NCBI GenBank assembly: GCA_019635215.1
Contig: JAHBZZ010000007.1
Span: 1 to 64,000 of the forward strand
Length of the DNA stretch: 64,000 bases
Origin: Nitrosomonas sp.
Lineage (GTDB): Bacteria > Pseudomonadota > Gammaproteobacteria > Burkholderiales > Nitrosomonadaceae
Reading direction: 5' to 3'
Shown: in pieces, positions 425 to 21,081 of the stretch
Numbering within the stretch: position 1 is the first letter of the stretch
Layout: each line of letters opens with the position of its first letter
The notes under the pieces: generated by a model
What the model was told of the DNA's origin: nothing
Databases searched by the model: none
Seen by the model: the letters and a program-made list of their open reading frames with translations, nothing else
Program-made: the position numbers and the translations under genes

Positions 425-2296
425 TCACAGATAATCGGATTTATTTATACGATATACCTTCATTCTGTAAGCCAGCGTGGATGGCTTGATGCCAAGCAGT
501 TCCGCAGCGCCATCCGTGCCTGAAATACGCCAGTTGGTACTTTTGAGAACGGCGATCATATTCATTTTCTCTTGCTCATGAAAATCCGCATCGGTCAGAA
601 GCTGTACTTTTTCTGTCAACCTGGTAGACAGTTGATTCACCGGGCTGTCCCGGTGAATATGCTCGGGCATTGCAAGATCAAGCCTGAGCTTTTGACCTTT
701 TGTCAGAATAACCGCTCGTTCAATAATATTTTTGAGTTCACGGATATTACCTGGCCAACTGTAGCTGCTCAATTGGTCCAGTTGCTGTCGGGTCAATTTG
801 AGCGGGTCACGACCGAATTCCTGACAGATATTTTTTAGAAATTGCATGGCCAGCGGCCCGATATCCTCGATTCTTTCGCGCAGCGGCGGTACTTCGACAG
901 GAAAAATACTCAATCGATAGTATAAATCCATACGGAAACGCCCGGCTTCAACCTCTGCTTTCAAATCACGATTGGTTGCCGCTACAATGCGCACATCCAC
1001 CTTAATCGTTTTATCGTCACCCACACGCTCGAATTCCTGTTCTTGTAAAGCACGTAATAGCTTTCCCTGTAAATCCAGCGGAATCTCACCCACTTCATCT
1101 AGAAACAGTGTACCGCCGGTAGCCAGGTGCAACCGGCCGATCCGGTCACGATGCGCGCCTGTAAACGAACCACGCACATGGCCGAAGAATTCGCTTTCAA
1201 AAAGCGCTTTGGGAATGGAAGCACAGTTGACCTTAACGAGCGGCTTATCGGCGCGGAAACTATTGGTATGAATCGCGCGGGCAATCATTTCCTTACCAAC
1301 ACCTGATTCACCCAATATCAGAACGCTGGCCGATGTTTTAGCAACGGCCTCTATCTGGGCTAGCGTACGTTTCAGGGCCTGGCTTTCGCCGATAATTTCA
1401 CCAAAATTGGCGGTGATATTGATTTCATCGCGCAAATAATCACGTTCCCGTTCCAGCTGTTCCTTCAGGGTTTTTATTTCCAGATAGGCTGCTTTGCGCT
1501 GTTGTTCGTTTTTCCTGCGCTCTGTAATATCCCGATAGACGACAACGGCCCCTTTCAGTTCACCATTCTCGCGGATAGGTGTGCTGGTATATTCAACGGG
1601 AACCGGTGTGCCGTCTGTACGCCAGAAGAATTCGTCATCTCCACGGTGTATTTCGCCATCTGTAAATGCGCGATAAATCGGGCATTCACCGCTTGGGTAT
1701 AGCCTGCCATCCGGATAGGAATGGTGGTGGATATCGTGCAGCGACTTTCCAATGACATCTTCGGTGCGCCATCCCAGAATCTGGGTCGCCGCCTCATTGA
1801 CAAAAGTTGTATTACCCTGCGCATCAACGCCGTAAATCCCTTCCCCCACCGCGTTAAGAATCAGTTCATGCGTCTTTTGCAACTGGTTGAGCTTATTAAC
1901 TGCACGGCTGTATTCTGCTGTCTCTGTAAACACCAGCAGCGCGTATTGTCGTGTGTCGTCCGCCTGTTTTATACGCCATGCCGATAGCATGCCCTGAAGT
2001 ACAGCGCTTCCGGCATAATCCTGTTCCGGCTGCAGCCGCGACAGCGATATCGGCCTGTCACTTATAACAGCACCGTTCTGTATGACCTGAGTAATCTGAT
2101 TAACGAGCGCAGCATCGTTCTGCCAATTAAATAACGCCTCAAGTGGATATGAAACGGCATCGGTAGTGCCTGGCAGCCCCAGATATTTCCGCCAGATCAT
2201 ATTGATGTTACGACAGACATATATTTCATCGACAATCGCTGCAAACAGCGGCGAATGACGGAAGCACAAATCAAAATTAATCATCATCAGAGTCAC
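425..2296 (-). CDS. Sigma-54-dependent enhancer-binding regulator with PAS domain
   Basis: Bacterial enhancer-binding protein, 623 aa. An N-terminal PAS-like region (about 5-125) precedes a second PAS domain (about 143-257) with the HHHSYPDGRLYP...CPIYRA stretch and FWRTDGTPVPVEY seen in many sensory PAS domains. The AAA+ core (about 295-525) has Walker A GESGVGKE (329-336), a sigma-54 contact loop GSFTGA (376-381; Ser replaces the usual Ala) and Walker B GGTLFLDE. A Fis-type helix-turn-helix closes the protein (AAELLGIKPSTLAYRM). It should activate RNA polymerase-sigma-54. The gene lies downstream and on the same strand as a cytochrome operon that has a -24/-12 promoter (4768-4783), its most likely target. 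The ligand is unknown. The start is uncertain among Met1, Met4 and Met5. Confidence 0.88.
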   Translation of the reverse strand: MTLMMINFDLCFRHSPLFAAIVDEIYVCRNINMIWRKYLGLPGTTDAVSYPLEALFNWQNDAALVNQITQVIQNGAVISDRPISLSRLQPEQDYAGSAVLQGMLSAWRIKQADDTRQYALLVFTETAEYSRAVNKLNQLQKTHELILNAVGEGIYGVDAQGNTTFVNEAATQILGWRTEDVIGKSLHDIHHHSYPDGRLYPSGECPIYRAFTDGEIHRGDDEFFWRTDGTPVPVEYTSTPIRENGELKGAVVVYRDITERRKNEQQRKAAYLEIKTLKEQLERERDYLRDEINITANFGEIIGESQALKRTLAQIEAVAKTSASVLILGESGVGKEMIARAIHTNSFRADKPLVKVNCASIPKALFESEFFGHVRGSFTGAHRDRIGRLHLATGGTLFLDEVGEIPLDLQGKLLRALQEQEFERVGDDKTIKVDVRIVAATNRDLKAEVEAGRFRMDLYYRLSIFPVEVPPLRERIEDIGPLAMQFLKNICQEFGRDPLKLTRQQLDQLSSYSWPGNIRELKNIIERAVILTKGQKLRLDLAMPEHIHRDSPVNQLSTRLTEKVQLLTDADFHEQEKMNMIAVLKSTNWRISGTDGAAELLGIKPSTLAYRMKVYRINKSDYL

Positions 2297-2593: not shown

Positions 2594-3895
2594 CTAATAA
2601 CGGCTATCTTTATTTCGATCCACATCTATTGCTGTTATCAAACGGCTACGATTTCCCCAGGTATTGCGTATATACGACACCACAAGTGCTACTTCCTCGT
2701 TGCGCAGAATCTGCTGGAATGGTGGCATTCCATAGGGTCTGGGATTTTCCGCTGTTGTCGGTGGATAGCCGCCATTCAGAACGCTGCGTATGGCATTTGA
2801 TGGCGGATTCATCATGACGCTGCGATTACCTGCCAGCGCAGGATAAATACCCGGCACACCTTTGCCGTCAGCACCATGGCAGGCCTTGCAATGCTTGTCA
2901 TACAGTTGCCTCCCTTGATTCAGATGCTTCAGCAAACTGCCCGTCATCACTGAGAAAGTAACACCAGACGCTACAGTACCGCTTTCATTTTCTGACAGTG
3001 ATTTCAGATAAACCGCCATTGCGTCGGCATCTTCCTGCGACAGATACTGCAGGCTTTGCCTCACGACAGTCGCCATCGGCCCGGAAGTCACAGCACGTTC
3101 GGTCACGCCGGTTTTCAGCAATGTTACGATTTCTTCGGTGGTCCAGTCACCGCTACCGGCCTCCATCCGCGAAGACAGAGAAGGCGCATACCAACCCATA
3201 CCCATAATCTGTCCGCCAGTCAGCGCATCATCCTTACTGGCACCCAATACATTACGCGTGGTATGGCAGGCATTGCAATGACCGAGTCCCTGCACCAGAT
3301 AGGCGCCACGATTCCATGTGTCACTCTGGGATTGCTCCGGCTGAAACACACCTGCTTTGAAATACAAGGCACGCCAGATTGCCAGCAACGGTCTGAAATT
3401 ATAGGGAAAGAAAATATCGCTGGGTGGATTGGATTGCGAAATCGGCGGCAGTGATTGCAGATAGGCAAAAATCGCATCGGCGTCTTGCCGCGTTACTTTG
3501 GTATATTCGGTATAGGGAAAAGCGGGATAAAGAAGACGTCCGTCACGTGATTTCCCCTCATGCAGCGCTTGCCAGAAATCCGCTTTGCTCCACAGGCCGA
3601 TGCCTGTTCCCTTGTCGGGCGTAATATTGGGTGTCACGAAAATACCAAATGAGGTAGACAGCCGGAGCCCACCTGCAAATGGCTGACCACCTTTAGCCGT
3701 ATGGCATCCCATGCAGTTGCCAACACGTGTCAGATAGGCGCCACGCATGAGCTGCTGCGTTTCGCTGGAATGTTTGGAATCACCAGCAAGCACATCGACA
3801 GCCGGTGTAAGTGAAGCAAACACCAACACTGCCATATATTTCCAAAATGACGTGTTGAATTTAAAGCAATTAACGCTGAATATTGGATAGCTCAT
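2594..3895 (-). CDS. Triheme c-type cytochrome (dehydrogenase cytochrome-subunit type)
   Basis: 433 aa exported cytochrome with three CxxCH haem sites: CMGCH (about residue 62), CNACH (about 207) and CKACH (about 337). The N-terminus has a hydrophobic segment ending VDVLAG, a plausible Sec signal. Spacing and the GAYLTRVGNCMGCHT / RGAYLVQGLGHCNACHT repeats resemble the cytochrome subunit of membrane-bound alcohol and gluconate dehydrogenases. No flavin or quinoprotein dehydrogenase is adjacent, so the electron donor is unknown. Its start overlaps the stop of the upstream diheme cytochrome by ATGA, implying translational coupling. Ends about 300 bp before the sigma-54 activator gene on the same strand. 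Confidence 0.85.
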   Translation of the reverse strand: MSYPIFSVNCFKFNTSFWKYMAVLVFASLTPAVDVLAGDSKHSSETQQLMRGAYLTRVGNCMGCHTAKGGQPFAGGLRLSTSFGIFVTPNITPDKGTGIGLWSKADFWQALHEGKSRDGRLLYPAFPYTEYTKVTRQDADAIFAYLQSLPPISQSNPPSDIFFPYNFRPLLAIWRALYFKAGVFQPEQSQSDTWNRGAYLVQGLGHCNACHTTRNVLGASKDDALTGGQIMGMGWYAPSLSSRMEAGSGDWTTEEIVTLLKTGVTERAVTSGPMATVVRQSLQYLSQEDADAMAVYLKSLSENESGTVASGVTFSVMTGSLLKHLNQGRQLYDKHCKACHGADGKGVPGIYPALAGNRSVMMNPPSNAIRSVLNGGYPPTTAENPRPYGMPPFQQILRNEEVALVVSYIRNTWGNRSRLITAIDVDRNKDSRY

Positions 3896-4629
3896 CGGGC
3901 ACCTCCATTTGCCGGGATAATTTGACCGCAGCGGTACGCCAACTCAGGCAGCAACGCGCTAAGAGGCCTGGATTCTCCCGTAACGGGCTGGCTTGCCAGC
4001 CATTTTGCAATCGCATCGGCTTCATCGTCGCTCAGCTGTTTGGCAATTTCGGACATACAATCCGGCGTCTGGCTTCGCATGATGCTGCCATTGCGCCAAC
4101 CACTGAGCTGTGCCGCAATATACGCACGAGATAACCCGAGCAAAGCCGGAATCGCAGGCTCTATCCCCATCAGCACATCACCATGACATGCACTGCAGGG
4201 TGGAATATCTTTATCCGGATTCCCTGAATAGATCAAACGTTCTGCCCGTTTGATTTCCTCAGGTTGCATGTGGATCTGTTCAGGCGCCGGATAGGGTAAT
4301 TGCAGTAAAGAAAAATACCGGGCGATTTCCAGCAGATATTCATCCGACATATTTTCCAGCAGAATCACCATGGGCTGATAATAGCGCCGGCCATCCCTGA
4401 AATTGCGCAGCTGATTGAAAAGATAACCCTGTGGTTTGCCTGCGATGCGCGGGTAATAAGCATCCCGTCCGGCTTTATCCTCAGCGCTATGGCAAATGGT
4501 GCACGCTCGAACGCGCTCAGCCATGGTATCCGGCACGATAATAGCTGTATCGCCATAAACATTTGTCAGCCCAGTGATACAGAGGAATATCATTAGAATC
4601 AAACGTAGCATCTGAGATCCCTTGGTCAT
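3892..4629 (-). CDS. Diheme cytochrome c (c4/c553-like)
   Basis: 245 aa periplasmic diheme cytochrome. It has a signal peptide (LRLILMIFLCITGLTNVYG) and two CxxCH sites, CTICH and CSACH. The first domain carries the cytochrome c4-like stretch YYPRIAGKPQGYLFNQLRNF, which is repeated in weaker form in the second (IPALLGLSRAYIAAQLSGW). It is first in an operon with the triheme cytochrome (4-bp overlap), giving a five-haem electron relay. The start may be Met7 (MLRLIL) rather than Met1. A -24/-12 promoter lies about 140 bp upstream, so expression probably depends on sigma-54 and an activator. Confidence 0.82.
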   Translation of the reverse strand: MTKGSQMLRLILMIFLCITGLTNVYGDTAIIVPDTMAERVRACTICHSAEDKAGRDAYYPRIAGKPQGYLFNQLRNFRDGRRYYQPMVILLENMSDEYLLEIARYFSLLQLPYPAPEQIHMQPEEIKRAERLIYSGNPDKDIPPCSACHGDVLMGIEPAIPALLGLSRAYIAAQLSGWRNGSIMRSQTPDCMSEIAKQLSDDEADAIAKWLASQPVTGESRPLSALLPELAYRCGQIIPANGGAR

Positions 4630-4767
4630 AAGTTATCAGAAACGGATGTTATATATACTAGAGTCAGCTTACCGGAGCTGTGGCTGGATTGGTCACATAT
4701 ACTGGATAAACCAGAGTATCATCCCTATAAAACATAGATAGAATCTTCTTAGTCCTTCAAACATTCT

Positions 4768-4783
4768 TGCAAAAACCGCACCA
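4768..4783 (-). promoter_or_regulatory. Sigma-54 (-24/-12) promoter for the cytochrome operon
   Basis: The minus strand reads TGGTGCGGTTTTTGCA. Against the consensus TGGCACG-N4-TTGCW it has the invariant GG (4782-4781) and GC (4770-4769) exactly 10 bp apart and differs at only two positions. Transcription would start near 4757, leaving a leader of about 128 nt before the diheme cytochrome start. The enhancer-binding protein encoded at 425-2296 is the obvious candidate activator. Confidence 0.7.
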
Positions 4784-4837
4784 TCCCCATTTTCTTTAAA
4801 ATTATCTGATTTCATCAATTATTGTCAGAATTTCTTA

Positions 4838-4951
4838 GAACCTTATTCATGATCTCAATCAAGAGGTGCAGTGTAAGACAAAATTGAACGAAAAAGTTGA
4901 GTTCGATTTTAACGCAGCAATGCGTCCTTCAGTGAGATCATGAACAGCTTC
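4838..4951. mobile_element. MITE with IS427-type ends, copy 1 (114 bp)
   Basis: Left end GAACCTTATTCATGATCTCA and right end (read inward) GAAGCTGTTCATGATCTCA form about 20-bp terminal inverted repeats. Both sides are flanked by TTA (4835-4837 and 4952-4954), a 3-bp target duplication of TNA type. The interior shares sequence, in reverse orientation, with the element at 32643-32830 (TTCAATTTTG...TTAC/GCACTRCACC...CTTGAT). The ends resemble those of the IS5-family element at 17464-18302. It has no coding capacity. Confidence 0.7.
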
Positions 4952-5027
4952 TTACAGGAGCTTTAGCATTAATCATGCCAAGAAATAAGATTATGATTTA
5001 TCTGTATCTTTAATTTATGTGCAAAAA

Positions 5028-5054
5028 CAGAATATTGAGATTCTCAATATTCTG
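5028..5054. promoter_or_regulatory. Perfect 27-bp palindrome, candidate activator-binding site
   Basis: CAGAATATTGAGA, one T, then TCTCAATATTCTG: a 13-bp perfect inverted repeat around a single base. Its centre is about 259 bp upstream of the -24 GG of the cytochrome promoter, and about 142 bp if the MITE and its target duplication are subtracted, which is a normal distance for an enhancer. There is no T-run, so a terminator is unlikely. The link to the activator is inference from position. Confidence 0.45.
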
Positions 5055-5518
5055 AGGCATGATTCACAAAAAACTGTGAGTCATTTTGAAATAATCGATA
5101 CTTTTAAAACAATGTTTCAGGATCTGTCTTTGTTGGCGACGCCGATAGATGGCGCACTAATTTGCCATGAACTCAATACCACCTGAATCTAAATCTACTC
5201 AAGCAACTCACCAAAACACTAATTGAGCGTATCCTGCAAGCAGGGACGATCAGACACATTTTAGTCACGATAAGCACGAAACTGTGAGCAATCTCACTGG
5301 CAATACCCAAACTATCATTAGGCTCTCATCGGACCGATTGCATCTCATTTGAATTCTCTCGTGTATTCCTTCCTTGTTGCCATGTTCTCCTCCAGTTATA
5401 GTCAATTTCCTCTTAGACTGGTGTGTCTGGATCTATTGGATCCGCATATCAATGAGCGTAGAAAATCTGTCTACGTACAAGCGCAAAGCTTGAGAGTGAA
5501 AATTATTTATTTTCAAAT
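5055..5518. other. Gene-free stretch, nothing recognised
   Basis: About 460 bp of AT-rich sequence with no reading frame that has a plausible ribosome site or recognisable product. It holds one near-miss for a sigma-54 promoter (5150-5165, wrong spacing). Confidence 0.5.
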
Positions 5519-5537
5519 GAGAATAATAATCATTTGT
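5519..5537. promoter_or_regulatory. Fur box over the -35 of a small-RNA promoter
   Basis: GAGAATAATAATCATTTGT matches 14 of 19 positions of the Fur consensus GATAATGATAATCATTATC. In the 7-1-7 form, TGAGAATAATAATCA (5518-5532) matches 12 of 14. It overlaps the -35 hexamer of the promoter at 5534-5562, the arrangement expected for repression by iron-loaded Fur. Confidence 0.6.
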
Positions 5538-5562
5538 AATGATAAAAAATGCTATGTATAAT
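5534..5562 (+). promoter_or_regulatory. Sigma-70 promoter TTGTAA-17-TATAAT
   Basis: -35 TTGTAA (5534-5539), a 17-bp spacer and a perfect -10 TATAAT (5557-5562), predicting a start near 5569. It is the best sigma-70 promoter noticed in the window, yet no convincing protein-coding gene follows; a terminator does, at 5669-5717. Confidence 0.65.
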
Positions 5563-5568
5563 GAACAT

Positions 5569-5717
5569 CATTCATCGAGTCCTTATCTACAGATGTATTA
5601 CCGCACCAGTCAGCGCATAACAGTATGCGTAGTCGGATGATTGGAATAGTTTTATGATAGACATGTTACCCGGCACATCCCTGCGTTTAACCTCCTTCGG
5701 TGTGCCGGGATTTTTAT
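5569..5717 (+). ncRNA. Candidate Fur-regulated small RNA
   Basis: A transcript of about 150 nt is predicted between the promoter at 5534-5562 and the terminator at 5669-5717. Only tiny unsupported frames lie inside, for example 15-19 codons with no ribosome site. A Fur box on the promoter and a free-standing intrinsic terminator are the hallmarks of RyhB/PrrF/NrrF-type iron-sparing sRNAs. The terminator loop contains CCTCCTT (5691-5697), complementary to Shine-Dalgarno sequences. No sequence similarity to a named sRNA was recognised. The transcript itself is inference. Confidence 0.5.
5669..5717 (+). terminator. Intrinsic terminator with anti-SD loop
   Basis: CCCGGCACA (5669-5677) pairs perfectly with TGTGCCGGG (5701-5709) and is followed by ATTTTTATT. 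The 23-nt loop is long for a terminator and includes CCTCCTT. No convincing coding gene on the plus strand ends here, so it probably terminates a non-coding transcript. Confidence 0.75.
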
Positions 5718-5802
5718 TGCGTGTCAATCAAATTTCAGTGTTTGTGCTGTTGCGTTCCCGGTTACGGGAAAAATGCAGGCGTCACAAACACCCGGCAGCA
5801 GA

Positions 5803-5889
5803 TTATCTGATAACCAGGTACCCAACGTACTGCGGTGTCCAGACAATGGGGTTTGAATGTTGATATGCAGATTTATAGTTGTGAATCAT
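5803..5889 (-). CDS. Possible small protein, 28 aa
   Basis: A 28-codon frame starting MIHNYKSAYQHSN is preceded by a strong ribosome site, AAAAAGGAG, 7 nt from the ATG. The peptide contains IVWTPQY, faintly like the start of IS200-type transposases, so it may be a decayed transposase start rather than a real small gene. The ribosome site is the only positive evidence. Confidence 0.25.
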   Translation of the reverse strand: MIHNYKSAYQHSNPIVWTPQYVGYLVIR

Positions 5890-5967
5890 CTTTCATCTCC
5901 TTTTTAACAAGAACATCATGTACCCGCTGAAAAAGGACAACTCTGGTACATGCCGATTGTCAGCGCA

Positions 5968-6759
5968 TCAATCCTCGCGATTCGAACCGGCAATCTCGAT
6001 TCGATTCACATACAAACGATTTCTAGGGCCTCTGCCGCTGATCCGTTCGCTGTAGTGCACTTTCACCATGACCGCCGCTTTCAGGCTTTTGACGGCAAAT
6101 TCGTACAGGTCGCGGTCGTTCATGATGAAATGGCTGAATCTGTTTCCGCTGCCGCCGACCTGCATCGTCAGGTAATACGTTCTGCTGATACTCCTGTTAC
6201 GGACGGCATTGGTTATTCTGCCGTACTCAACGCCACGGGAAACTTCGAATTCAAAAGTGCTGATATTTCCTTCAAGTACTGTTTCATCAGGCGAATCGTT
6301 TTCCTCAACGGAATAAATGGCGGCAAATTCGGCAATTGCCGAACAGGAAAGCATGGATGATCTGCGCGGTGTTTTGAATTCGACCACGACGTCTTTCCCG
6401 ATGAACGCTTCAATCATTTCATAATCATCCTTGTCAAAACAAAACGGCCAGGGATTATTGTCCAGACTTAGCGGAAACCCACCGTAACTGACAAACGAAC
6501 CGCTACCGCTGCCGAGCAACAACTGGCCGGCATAGGCCTGATTAAATGCGTTATTAAACTTGTTCTGCAGTCCTACTCTGCTCAACTGGCCCGAAGCATA
6601 ACCCTGTGTATCCACCACGGGCGCTGTCGGAATCACTTGGCCATCCTGCAAAAACTGGGCGGTGACGGAACCTGAATGTAAAACACCGCAATAGACCAGG
6701 ATAATAAAAAGGAAGCCGGAAAAATTATTGTTATGGCTGACAGCGGTTATCATAAACAC
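5968..6759 (-). CDS. Secreted protein of unknown function
   Basis: 263 aa. The N-terminal hydrophobic stretch FSGFLFIILVYCGVLHSGSVTAQ is a likely signal peptide with cleavage after VTA. The mature part starts with a Gly/Gln-rich segment (residues 40-100: QGYASGQL, GSGSGSFVSYGG) and continues as a mixed alpha/beta-looking domain with two Cys (about 107 and 138). No catalytic motif or family was recognised. The neighbour at 6891-7277 is also a secreted orphan on the same strand, 131 bp upstream, so they may be expressed together. Codon use resembles the surroundings. Confidence 0.6.
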   Translation of the reverse strand: MFMITAVSHNNNFSGFLFIILVYCGVLHSGSVTAQFLQDGQVIPTAPVVDTQGYASGQLSRVGLQNKFNNAFNQAYAGQLLLGSGSGSFVSYGGFPLSLDNNPWPFCFDKDDYEMIEAFIGKDVVVEFKTPRRSSMLSCSAIAEFAAIYSVEENDSPDETVLEGNISTFEFEVSRGVEYGRITNAVRNRSISRTYYLTMQVGGSGNRFSHFIMNDRDLYEFAVKSLKAAVMVKVHYSERISGRGPRNRLYVNRIEIAGSNRED

Positions 6760-6890: not shown

Positions 6891-7277
6891 TCAGCCTTTG
6901 TGAAACTTCCCGCCACTGCTAATACAAGTTTCTTCTATAGTCGATGCGTCCCAATCATGTATTTTTTCCGTGCCGGAATAATAGTGTTTATCAAAAACCA
7001 GGCCATCCGGATCTTTGAATCGGCTGCAGTAACCGATACGGTCTTCCTCCGGACAGCGCACGCCAACAGTGCAGTGTTTGGTAATCAATTGCCTATCCGT
7101 AGCGGACAGCATATTCAACCTGTATTCCTCGCAAATCCCCTGGCGCTTGATGCGCTCGCAAATGACAAACCCTTTCGGGTCTTCATCCGCACTGCTATAT
7201 GCAGCGCCTGTCTGCAGGATAAATAACGGAATTAAACCAATGATCAGTAAATAAGCTTTTGTCATGAATTGTTTCAT
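6891..7277 (-). CDS. Small secreted cysteine-rich protein
   Basis: 128 aa from the ATG at 7277; a GTG three codons earlier is possible. The signal peptide MKQFMTKAYLLIIGLIPLFILQTGAAYSS is clear. The mature part of about 100 residues has six Cys, suggesting three disulphides in the periplasm: C-ERIKRQGI-C, then HC, RC, YC and a last C near the end. Charged and Gly/Asp-rich (SRFKDPDGLVFDKHYYSG). No family recognised. It sits between pgsA and another secreted orphan, all on the minus strand. Confidence 0.6.
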   Translation of the reverse strand: MKQFMTKAYLLIIGLIPLFILQTGAAYSSADEDPKGFVICERIKRQGICEEYRLNMLSATDRQLITKHCTVGVRCPEEDRIGYCSRFKDPDGLVFDKHYYSGTEKIHDWDASTIEETCISSGGKFHKG

Positions 7278-19776: not shown

Positions 19777-21081
19777 TGAATCGGCCCGGGATTGCCGGAG
19801 ACTCTATTTCTTGAGAGGATAGAGTAATGAAAAAACAAATGAGATATTCACCGGAAGTACGGGAACGAGCTGTCCGGCTATTGGGAGAACAGCAAGGCGA
19901 GTATGCGTCGCAGTGGGCAGCACTGGAATCGATAGCATCCAAGATCGGTTGTAGTGCTGAGACGCTGCGTAAATGGGTACGACAATCAGAAACTGATCAA
20001 GGTATTCGAGGAGGCATGTCAACCACGGAACGAGAGGCTCAAACAACTGGAGCGCGAGAATCGTGAGGTTAAAGCGGGCAAATGAGATATTGCGCAAGGC
20101 GTCTGCTTATTTTGCCCAGGCGGAGCTCGACCATGCCCGACCAGAAGAAATGACAATGGTATTTGTCGATCAACACAAGAGACAGTATGGGGTCGAGCCG
20201 ATCTGCAAGCAAATTCCAGATTGCCCCGTCGAGTTACTACGAACACAAGGCTCGTGAACGAGATCCTAATCGCTACCCGATCGCATCCAAACGAGACAAA
20301 GCGCTTGAAGGAGAGATACAGCAGTATGGGACAGCAACTTTAAAGTCTACGGCGCCAGCAAAGTCTGCGACAACTGTTACGTGAAGGCATTCGCGTTGCG
20401 TTGTACAGTCGAGCGGCTGATGAAGAAGCTTGGAATACAAGGCGTCAGACGCGGTAAAGCGCTGGACAACGATTGCAGACGAATTGCTTGACCGGCCAAC
20501 AGATAGGGATTAATCGTTCGTTGCTTGGCAATGCGCCGAATCAACTGTGGGTGGCAGACATTACGTTTGTTACAGCTTGGACAGGATTTGTTTATGTGGC
20601 TTTTTATTACCGATGTTTTTGCTCGATTTATTGTTGGTTGGCGAGTCAGTCGTCATTGCATACGGATCTGGTGCTCCGATGCATTGGGCAGGCGTTATGG
20701 GCACGACGGGAAACCGGCGGGTTGATTCACCACGGTGATAGAGGCAATCAATATCTGTCGATTCGCTATACAGAACGTCTGGTAAACCAATATTGATGCT
20801 TCTGTTGGTAGTGTCGGCGATTCTTATGACAATGCAATGGCTGAAAACGATTAACGGATTATACAAGACAGAAGTTATTCGACATCGCGGTCCATGGCGC
20901 AATAGTGATGAAGTCGGGTACCGCACGATGGGTTGACTGGTTCAACAATCGCCGATTACTGGAACCGATTGGAAATATTCCGCCGGCTGAATTTGAAATG
21001 GCATATTATCGCCAACTGGAAGAGTCAGCTGATGCTGCTTGACTCAAACTAAAAAGTCTCCGGAAAAATCAGGCCGATTCA
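19777..21081 (+). mobile_element. IS3-family insertion sequence (IS51-like), 1305 bp, degenerate
   Basis: Left end TGAATCGGCCCGGGATTGCC and right end read inward TGAATCGGCCTGATTTTTCC are matching terminal repeats starting TGA as usual for IS3. The bases outside (CAGG left, TATT right) do not match, so there is no target duplication. Different truncated genes lie on each side (ATPase left, lipoprotein right), consistent with deletion by recombination between two copies or an adjacent deletion. Confidence 0.85.
19827..21042 (+). pseudogene. IS3-family transposase OrfAB, multiple frameshifts
   Basis: OrfA starts at 19827 (MKKQMRYSPEVRERAVRLLGEQ; helix-turn-helix GCSAETLRKWVRQ) but leaves frame near 20045; its leucine-zipper end (RANEILRKASAYFAQAELD) is in another frame. 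OrfB pieces follow in several frames: APSSYYEHKARERDPNRYP, then NQLWVADITFV (first catalytic Asp), GLIHHGDRGNQYLSIRYTERL (second Asp), INGLYK (Glu) and DWFNNRRLLEPIGNIPPAEFE near the end, stop at 21040-21042. At least five breaks make it inactive. Confidence 0.85.

Follow-up and report, generated by a model that had tools for sequence, protein, structure and literature searches.

Does the gap between two cytochrome c genes and the next minus-strand gene of this Nitrosomonas contig hold the gene of a small RNA, and would such an RNA answer to iron? An earlier note on the same DNA had suggested so for positions 5519 to 5717 of the window (the whole stretch of 64,000 nucleotides analysed here), where it saw a Fur-regulated gene with no protein product. 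Read together with its relatives in other genomes, the locus lends good support to a Fur-controlled sRNA gene. The parts on which this reading rests are the following, together with the neighbouring genes.

2594-3895 and 3892-4629, minus strand: cytochrome c genes (PF00034)
5519-5537, plus strand: predicted Fur box GAGAATAATAATCATTTGT, overlapping the -35 element
5534-5562, plus strand: predicted sigma-70-type promoter TTGTAA-17-TATAAT, 10 of 12 positions, from the promoter scan
5570-5598, plus strand: P0, a 5' hairpin ATTCATC/GATGTAT with one mismatch, paired by hand, exact pairing uncertain
5577-5591, plus strand: loop of P0, GAGTCCTTATCTACA
5598-5645, plus strand: conserved core of 48 nt, from alignments and covariance models
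5606-5612/5638-5644, plus strand: helix P1 of the core
5613-5619/5624-5630, plus strand: helix P2 of the core
5631-5637, plus strand: 3' bulge AGTCGGA of the core
5601-5603 (CCG) with 5634-5636 (CGG), plus strand: possible pseudoknot of the core
5669-5709, plus strand: terminator hairpin CCCGGCACATC/GGTGTGCCGGG, from direct reading and the terminator scan
5690-5697, plus strand: anti-Shine-Dalgarno (anti-SD) stretch ACCTCCTT, 8 nt of the anti-SD, in the terminator loop
5710-5717, plus strand: U-tract ATTTTTAT, the predicted 3' end
5968-6759, minus strand: gene without a Pfam match

The locus and its surroundings

Direct reading and scanning both returned the Fur box that the earlier note had placed over the -35 of TTGTAA-17-TATAAT. 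It matches the Fur-box consensus GATAATGATAATCATTATC at 14 of 19 positions, and the promoter at 5534-5562 has the joint top score of the promoter scan (4500-6500). The 9-bp perfect stem with U-tract was likewise found as described: CCCGGCACA and TGTGCCGGG at 5669-5677 and 5701-5709 form nine perfect pairs (11 when a G-U is counted) and ATTTTTATT lies directly 3' of them, whereas a first scan that allowed loops of at most 8 nt had listed just a 5-pair stem here. Judging from the position of the -10 element, transcription would start at about 5568-5570, which gives a predicted transcript of some 148 nt (5569 to about 5717, plus strand). A single complete ORF of at least 15 aa, itself 15 aa long, lies within it, in agreement with the earlier view that the interval holds no credible ORF. 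As for P0, the automatic hairpin scan chose a different pairing in the window copy from the one that we made by hand.

The window copy sits in the 1.3-kb gap between the cytochrome c genes and the gene at 5968-6759. Its neighbours comprise these cytochrome c genes, two proteins without a Pfam match and two further genes, which we take to be pgsA- and uvrC-like; no phage gene was found beside it among the neighbours examined. Ten window proteins, compared with 122 loci (many with 1.5 kb of flank), revealed a shared neighbourhood only at the locus itself and at L069, a record with a masked stretch inside uvrC. The same gap also holds a 12-pair inverted repeat, CAGAATATTGAGAATCTCAATATTCTG, at 5028-5054 with a T-tract on the minus strand. 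Elsewhere in the window, an ALIL pseudoknot (RF01497) scored 74.3 bits at 20104-20228 (plus strand). This element is typical of frameshift sites in the IS3 family, and an insertion sequence is likely there.

Judged alone, the window's Fur box, promoter and terminator are weak evidence, only suggestive of a gene, because shuffled sequences and chance expectations come close to their scores. Six promoters were seen between 4500 and 6500 against 5.3 expected, and four terminators against 1.5. When the surrounding 200 bp were shuffled 1000 times, the Fur score was attained 51 times, and the 64-kb window contained seven sites of at least 14/19 compared with a mean of 2.85 over 20 shuffled windows. 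Folding of the predicted RNA gave a z of -1.66, with equal stability in 12 of 200 shuffles. The case for an RNA gene therefore rests on comparison, in which the parts recur together across relatives.

A family of structured cores

A blastn search with 5480-5740 returned one paralogue in the own genome and numerous partial matches within the genus, often at query positions 120-173. Side-by-side reading of the relatives yielded a core pattern, ACCGCACCARYCAGCGC...GCGTAGYCGGATGRYTGG, and two covariance models followed, a first (R1) and a second built on 90 matches (R2); the window core scores 70.4 bits with R1 and 65.6 bits with R2. At E<=0.01, R1 detected the core in 44 of the 125 genomes of the family; all 44 belong to a single genus and have at most six cores each, and four of them are doubtful as they match only at E 0.005-0.009. 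With R2, 41 of the 85 genus genomes have the core (E<=1e-4), and the own genome has three copies, each with a Fur box (14, 16 and 14 of 19).

A phylum sample of 398 genomes, searched with R2 at E<=0.001 under stricter filters, contained no core beyond the own genome. Fourteen of the 399 genomes in an order sample matched: five of the genus, one Gallionella (G453) that is convincing at 56.7 bits, and eight weak ones (23.3-28.1 bits). A contig scan across records matched 42 stretches, 32 of them from Nitrosomonas; model scoring covered 14 of the 42. Among the ten stretches from elsewhere, L067 (Gallionella, 56.7 bits) and L070 (68.3 bits) are strong; the remaining eight comprise seven with no more than 25.9 bits and L076, which gave no match. 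Searches by blastn against plasmids and phages returned two and one short matches, respectively, which we judged to be chance.

Across the core, Rfam 15 gave nothing above cut-off; outside it, the window matched ALIL, and L032 had a nuoG match below threshold. The cores thus computed form a structured RNA family common to Nitrosomonas and some phages that is apparently undescribed. Within the literature searched and Rfam 15, we found no publication on the window RNA; its overlap with the candidates of Gvakharia et al. 2010, a study that covers N. europaea sRNAs according to its citation in PMC3927594, is possible.

Two alignments bear on the structure. A1, made of 37 cores with MAFFT independently of the covariance models, fits a helix P1 of seven pairs and a helix P2 of four to seven pairs with a 3' bulge AGYCGGA; 10 of the 14 pairs show double-sided changes, and covariation is 0.297 against 0.155±0.013 in shuffles. 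A2 holds 102 fetched cores from 100 stretches at E<=0.001 (101 of the genus and that of G453), leaving out a few further genus or family sites found by R1 and R2. Being fitted to the covariance model and hence biased towards it, as A1 was not, A2 has double-sided changes in 12 of 14 pairs, 89.9% of its cells paired and a covariation of 0.440 against 0.185±0.009. Computation thus supports the P1/P2 structure. The 5' CCG is able to pair with the CGG of the bulge, which would make the core an H-type pseudoknot with an inserted hairpin. The evidence for this is suggestive: pairing is possible in 99.3% of the A2 cells, with one compensatory change (L191), one case kept by a wobble (L042) and two broken cells (L193, L213). 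An alternative core hairpin, AGYC[GGAU]GRYU, had weaker support than P1. Besides, we considered ribozymes (self-cleaving) and riboswitches, and to our knowledge no consensus of either fits the core.

Promoters, terminators and flanks

The 102 members fall into four groups, assigned by eye with computed Fur scores. Group a, the Fur type, comprises 38 members in 24 genomes (a tally from a hand-made list), in which a Fur-like box of 13-16/19 begins 61-102 nt upstream of the core; L188, with 13/19 at -125, was left out as another type. The remaining 64 have no comparable box at this position. Group b lacks a Fur box and carries a motif resembling GTTCGATAACGAACAGA or CACGTACAGATAAATT upstream, group c a AACTCTCCTTTCTTTGATT hairpin plus a short terminator, and group d stands in phage-like settings, so that the non-Fur members have other promoters or phage settings, some immediately before a gene. 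To group b belong L259, L260 and L261, Fur-less chromosomal cores (at about 4000) in three genomes whose upstream motif resembles AGCGCACAGAAAGATAA; they have one neighbour in common by eye, and two of them share both. Their RNA is possibly an sRNA under a different regulator than Fur.

Some cores lie close together in pairs: 408-457 and 551-598 in L152, 402-449 and 543-590 in L230, and 473-519 and 1209-1264 in L037. The L152 pair scores 11 and then 14 of 19, the Fur-like box standing at the second core only. In L175 the core (441-484, minus strand) adjoins a CRISPR-repeat-like sequence, GTTCCCCACGCCCGTGGGGATGAACCG.

Terminators follow the core in 70 of 102 members compared with 41 of 306 shuffles, among them 33 of the 38 of the Fur type; in the other five of that type, L034, L140, L206, L207 and L215, the hairpin lacks a T-tract. 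A hairpin just 5' of the core has a mean score of 7.1, compared with 5.0 in shuffles. The loops are 71% pyrimidine in this hairpin and 79% in the terminators, both raw shares set beside no control of their own. Anti-SD matches of at least 6 nt are enriched on both sides: 18 of 102 members have one within the 36 nt that precede the core (4.9±2.3 expected) and 41 downstream of it (18.6±3.2), compared with two inside the core (4.0±1.8); the backward control gave 4 upstream and 22 downstream. With matches of 5 nt, little excess is left downstream (70 against 54.7±4.9, backward control 66). A full-length alignment of 12 Fur-type members (A4) has three terminator pairs with double-sided changes and 98.5% of cells paired there, a weakly kept and poorly aligned P0 (53.7% of cells) and no double-sided change in P1; its total of seven double-changed pairs was equalled by 79 of 500 shuffles.

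By computation, then, the arrangement of promoter, RNA and terminator with no conserved ORF recurs in relatives, mostly Nitrosomonas, as the earlier note had led one to expect. Its expectation of conservation stood as regards the RNA structure, which is kept without a conserved short ORF; on the other hand, R2 detected no core at E<=1e-4 in 44 of the 85 genus genomes.

Phage copies and alternative readings

The pattern scan gave 23 viral loci, and in 20 of them the covariance model confirmed the core; a looser viral pattern added 15 new loci, among which L280 alone has cores (two). One common box of 13/19 stands at the Fur-type position in L221, L228, L231, L233 and L234. L232 has a 13/19 box, the top site of L224 (14/19) is located elsewhere, and L230 has a 15/19 box at the Fur-type position before its second core and 9/19 before its first; the remaining 12 viral loci score 8-11. 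In L221 the core follows directly after a CII-like gene (PF06892, phrog_101). L228 has a gene of similar appearance (by eye) on one side, and a frame with an antirepressor domain (PF08346) lies downstream of the core. The long P2 loop of the L225 core (7074-7137) occurs in a viral record of 35.9 kb (IMG 637000196) that is, we presume, possibly a N. europaea prophage.

These settings might indicate that the hairpin P0 and the core form a mobile regulatory RNA module exchanged between phages and Nitrosomonas. In phages it would serve as mRNA leaders and early-region small RNAs, and in the host as trans-acting sRNAs driven by Fur-controlled and other promoters; the core, folded into a pseudoknot, would have a single partner throughout and represent a new class of RNA domain. 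We regard this broader picture as speculative and somewhat unlikely. Under it, the good Fur-like box of L230 would tie phage control to iron.

Alternatively, the RNA could stem from phages and act, in the manner of c4 and sar, as an antisense RNA on a prophage antirepressor or early gene, the chromosomal copies, that of the window included, being domesticated or stranded with a Fur-like promoter kept by chance. This reading draws on the same viral cores, on the genes adjoining L221 and L228 and on the boxes of the six viral loci that have one at 13/19 in common or 15/19. Yet a large number of members are surrounded by chromosomal genes, at least one neighbour is common to L259, L260 and L261 (by eye), the window copy shows no phage gene among the neighbours examined and Rfam C4 is not among its listed matches. 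We consider this origin unlikely.

Other phage loci raise the question of a cis-acting leader or attenuator, in which the anti-SD loop and the core would regulate whichever gene follows them in the transcript. By eye, 3-28 nt separate the end of the core from a start codon in the six phage loci L219, L220, L222, L226, L237 and L239 and in Gallionella L204, and the distance is 43 nt in L235 and 100 nt in L240. In L226 the following gene encodes a terminase small subunit; the L237 core (5391-5438) overlaps the end of the portal gene, with the conserved TAG of the core serving as that gene's stop, and lies 3 nt before the head-morphogenesis start; the genes after the cores of L219, L220 and L222 have no PHROG match. 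The window RNA, however, ends in a terminator with the next gene on the opposite strand, and the plus-strand ORFs before 10922 are at most 155 aa long and mostly overlie minus-strand genes. Besides, 18 of 63 non-Fur rows have no ORF of at least 40 aa starting within 260 nt. A leader is thus an improbable account of the locus.

A real RNA gene outside Fur control, its AT-rich box a chance match, would fit the marginal score of the window box, equalled by the local shuffles mentioned above, and the 64 members that have none. Against this, the top upstream box reaches at least 14/19 in 32 of 102 members compared with 9 of 1020 shuffled upstream sequences, and the 38 boxes of at least 13 lie at a similar distance from the core; six of these score just 13/19, which 54 of the 1020 shuffles attain. 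We find a chance box very improbable.

Coding was the last alternative. A core frame (PHQ..A...RSRM..) is stop-free and open from an upstream start in 53 of 102 members against 26% of shuffles, and 58 of the 102 cores have a length divisible by three. This frame is often open because in the other two the conserved letters themselves spell stop codons. Paired changes fall on differing codon positions of the two sides, matching base pairing. In the window, the frame is open over 5565-5655 with no start upstream of the core, and no conserved ORF was found among the 102 members. A short conserved peptide is hardly credible and we dismissed it, as 44 of 102 core lengths break the only frame in which openness is to be expected and the changes covary as base pairs.

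Proposed function

We are left with the reading that positions 5569 to about 5717 (plus strand) probably constitute the gene of a Fur-repressed, trans-acting sRNA whose loops pair with ribosome-binding regions and whose core binds a partner or protects the RNA. To judge from its Fur-box promoter, this non-coding RNA would be repressed by Fur when iron is plentiful and made in iron shortage. It would consist of three blocks, namely a 5' hairpin with a pyrimidine-rich loop, the 48-nt core, probably a pseudoknot, and a terminator whose loop carries the anti-SD stretch. Most likely, the exposed loops would pair in trans with the ribosome-binding regions of mRNAs and so lower their translation, while the core could be a platform for an RNA-binding protein, be it Hfq or another partner, or could protect the RNA. 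Both Fur (152 bits) and Hfq (102 bits) are encoded in the own genome. Searches for targets gave no lead: the complement of the P0 loop (13-mer, at most one mismatch) matched only itself, against 10 matches for the reversed control, and that of the terminator loop (at most one mismatch) had five other matches (18 in the control), of which none lies convincingly at a start codon.

Counted against the Fur-repressed sRNA are the marginal window box, the 64 of 102 members without a box and the lack of a loop target, as well as the A4 shuffles, the absence of a common neighbourhood, the presence in 41 of 85 genomes and the five hairpins lacking a T-tract. If the reading is right, ammonia oxidisers, which depend on haem proteins for their energy metabolism, would have an RNA that responds to iron, and this would offer a way to test iron economy in nitrification. 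More broadly, the known structured RNAs would gain a family with no Rfam 15 match above cut-off, with strong covariation and a possible pseudoknot, common to host sRNAs and phage genomes.

Comparison with known systems

BrrF, according to PMC7377471, is a low-iron sRNA of Burkholderia located downstream of hemP, without a Fur box directly upstream, and is reported there within Burkholderiales only. The window RNA would have in common with BrrF that it is a low-iron sRNA of a beta-proteobacterium, its iron response being predicted; it differs in having its own promoter and a different build and in not being linked to hemP.

The alpha-proteobacterial cuckoo and alpha-r14 sRNAs have anti-SD motifs in hairpin loops and many paralogues, as does our family, in which such motifs are enriched though not universal, ACCTCCTT being the one in the window copy. 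They belong to another lineage and are not known to have such a P1/P2 core. The c4 RNAs of phages P1 and P7 and the sar RNA of P22 are antisense RNAs that control a prophage antirepressor or early gene by pairing near ribosome-binding sites. They resemble the phage members in being small phage RNAs near an antirepressor gene, whereas many members of the window family stand alone and 38 have a Fur-like box; Rfam C4 gave no match at E<=10 in either the window region or the L221 stretch.

With regard to RyhB, PrrF and NrrF, which are iron-sparing sRNAs repressed by Fur, Rfam gave no match over the region at gathering score, neither to these nor to any other family. PrrF (RF00444) reached 16.7 bits against a cut-off of 90 (E 1.4) and was rejected; at E<=10 the only others were four families of eukaryotes or archaea, none of which reached its cut-off. 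The earlier note's likening of the locus to these RNAs was sound insofar as it concerned an sRNA gene with a Fur-box promoter. Its phrase that they have exactly this build went too far, since the conserved structured domain has no Rfam family, 64 of 102 members lack the Fur box at that place and some reside in phages. The locus has in common with the three RNAs a Fur box over the promoter, the lack of an ORF, a predicted intrinsic terminator and a predicted length of about 150 nt, and with PrrF also the occurrence in multiple copies. The structured core, found also without Fur boxes and in phages, sets the window family apart from them. On sequence grounds, then, the window RNA is not a homologue of RyhB or PrrF and instead appears to be a member of a wider RNA family.
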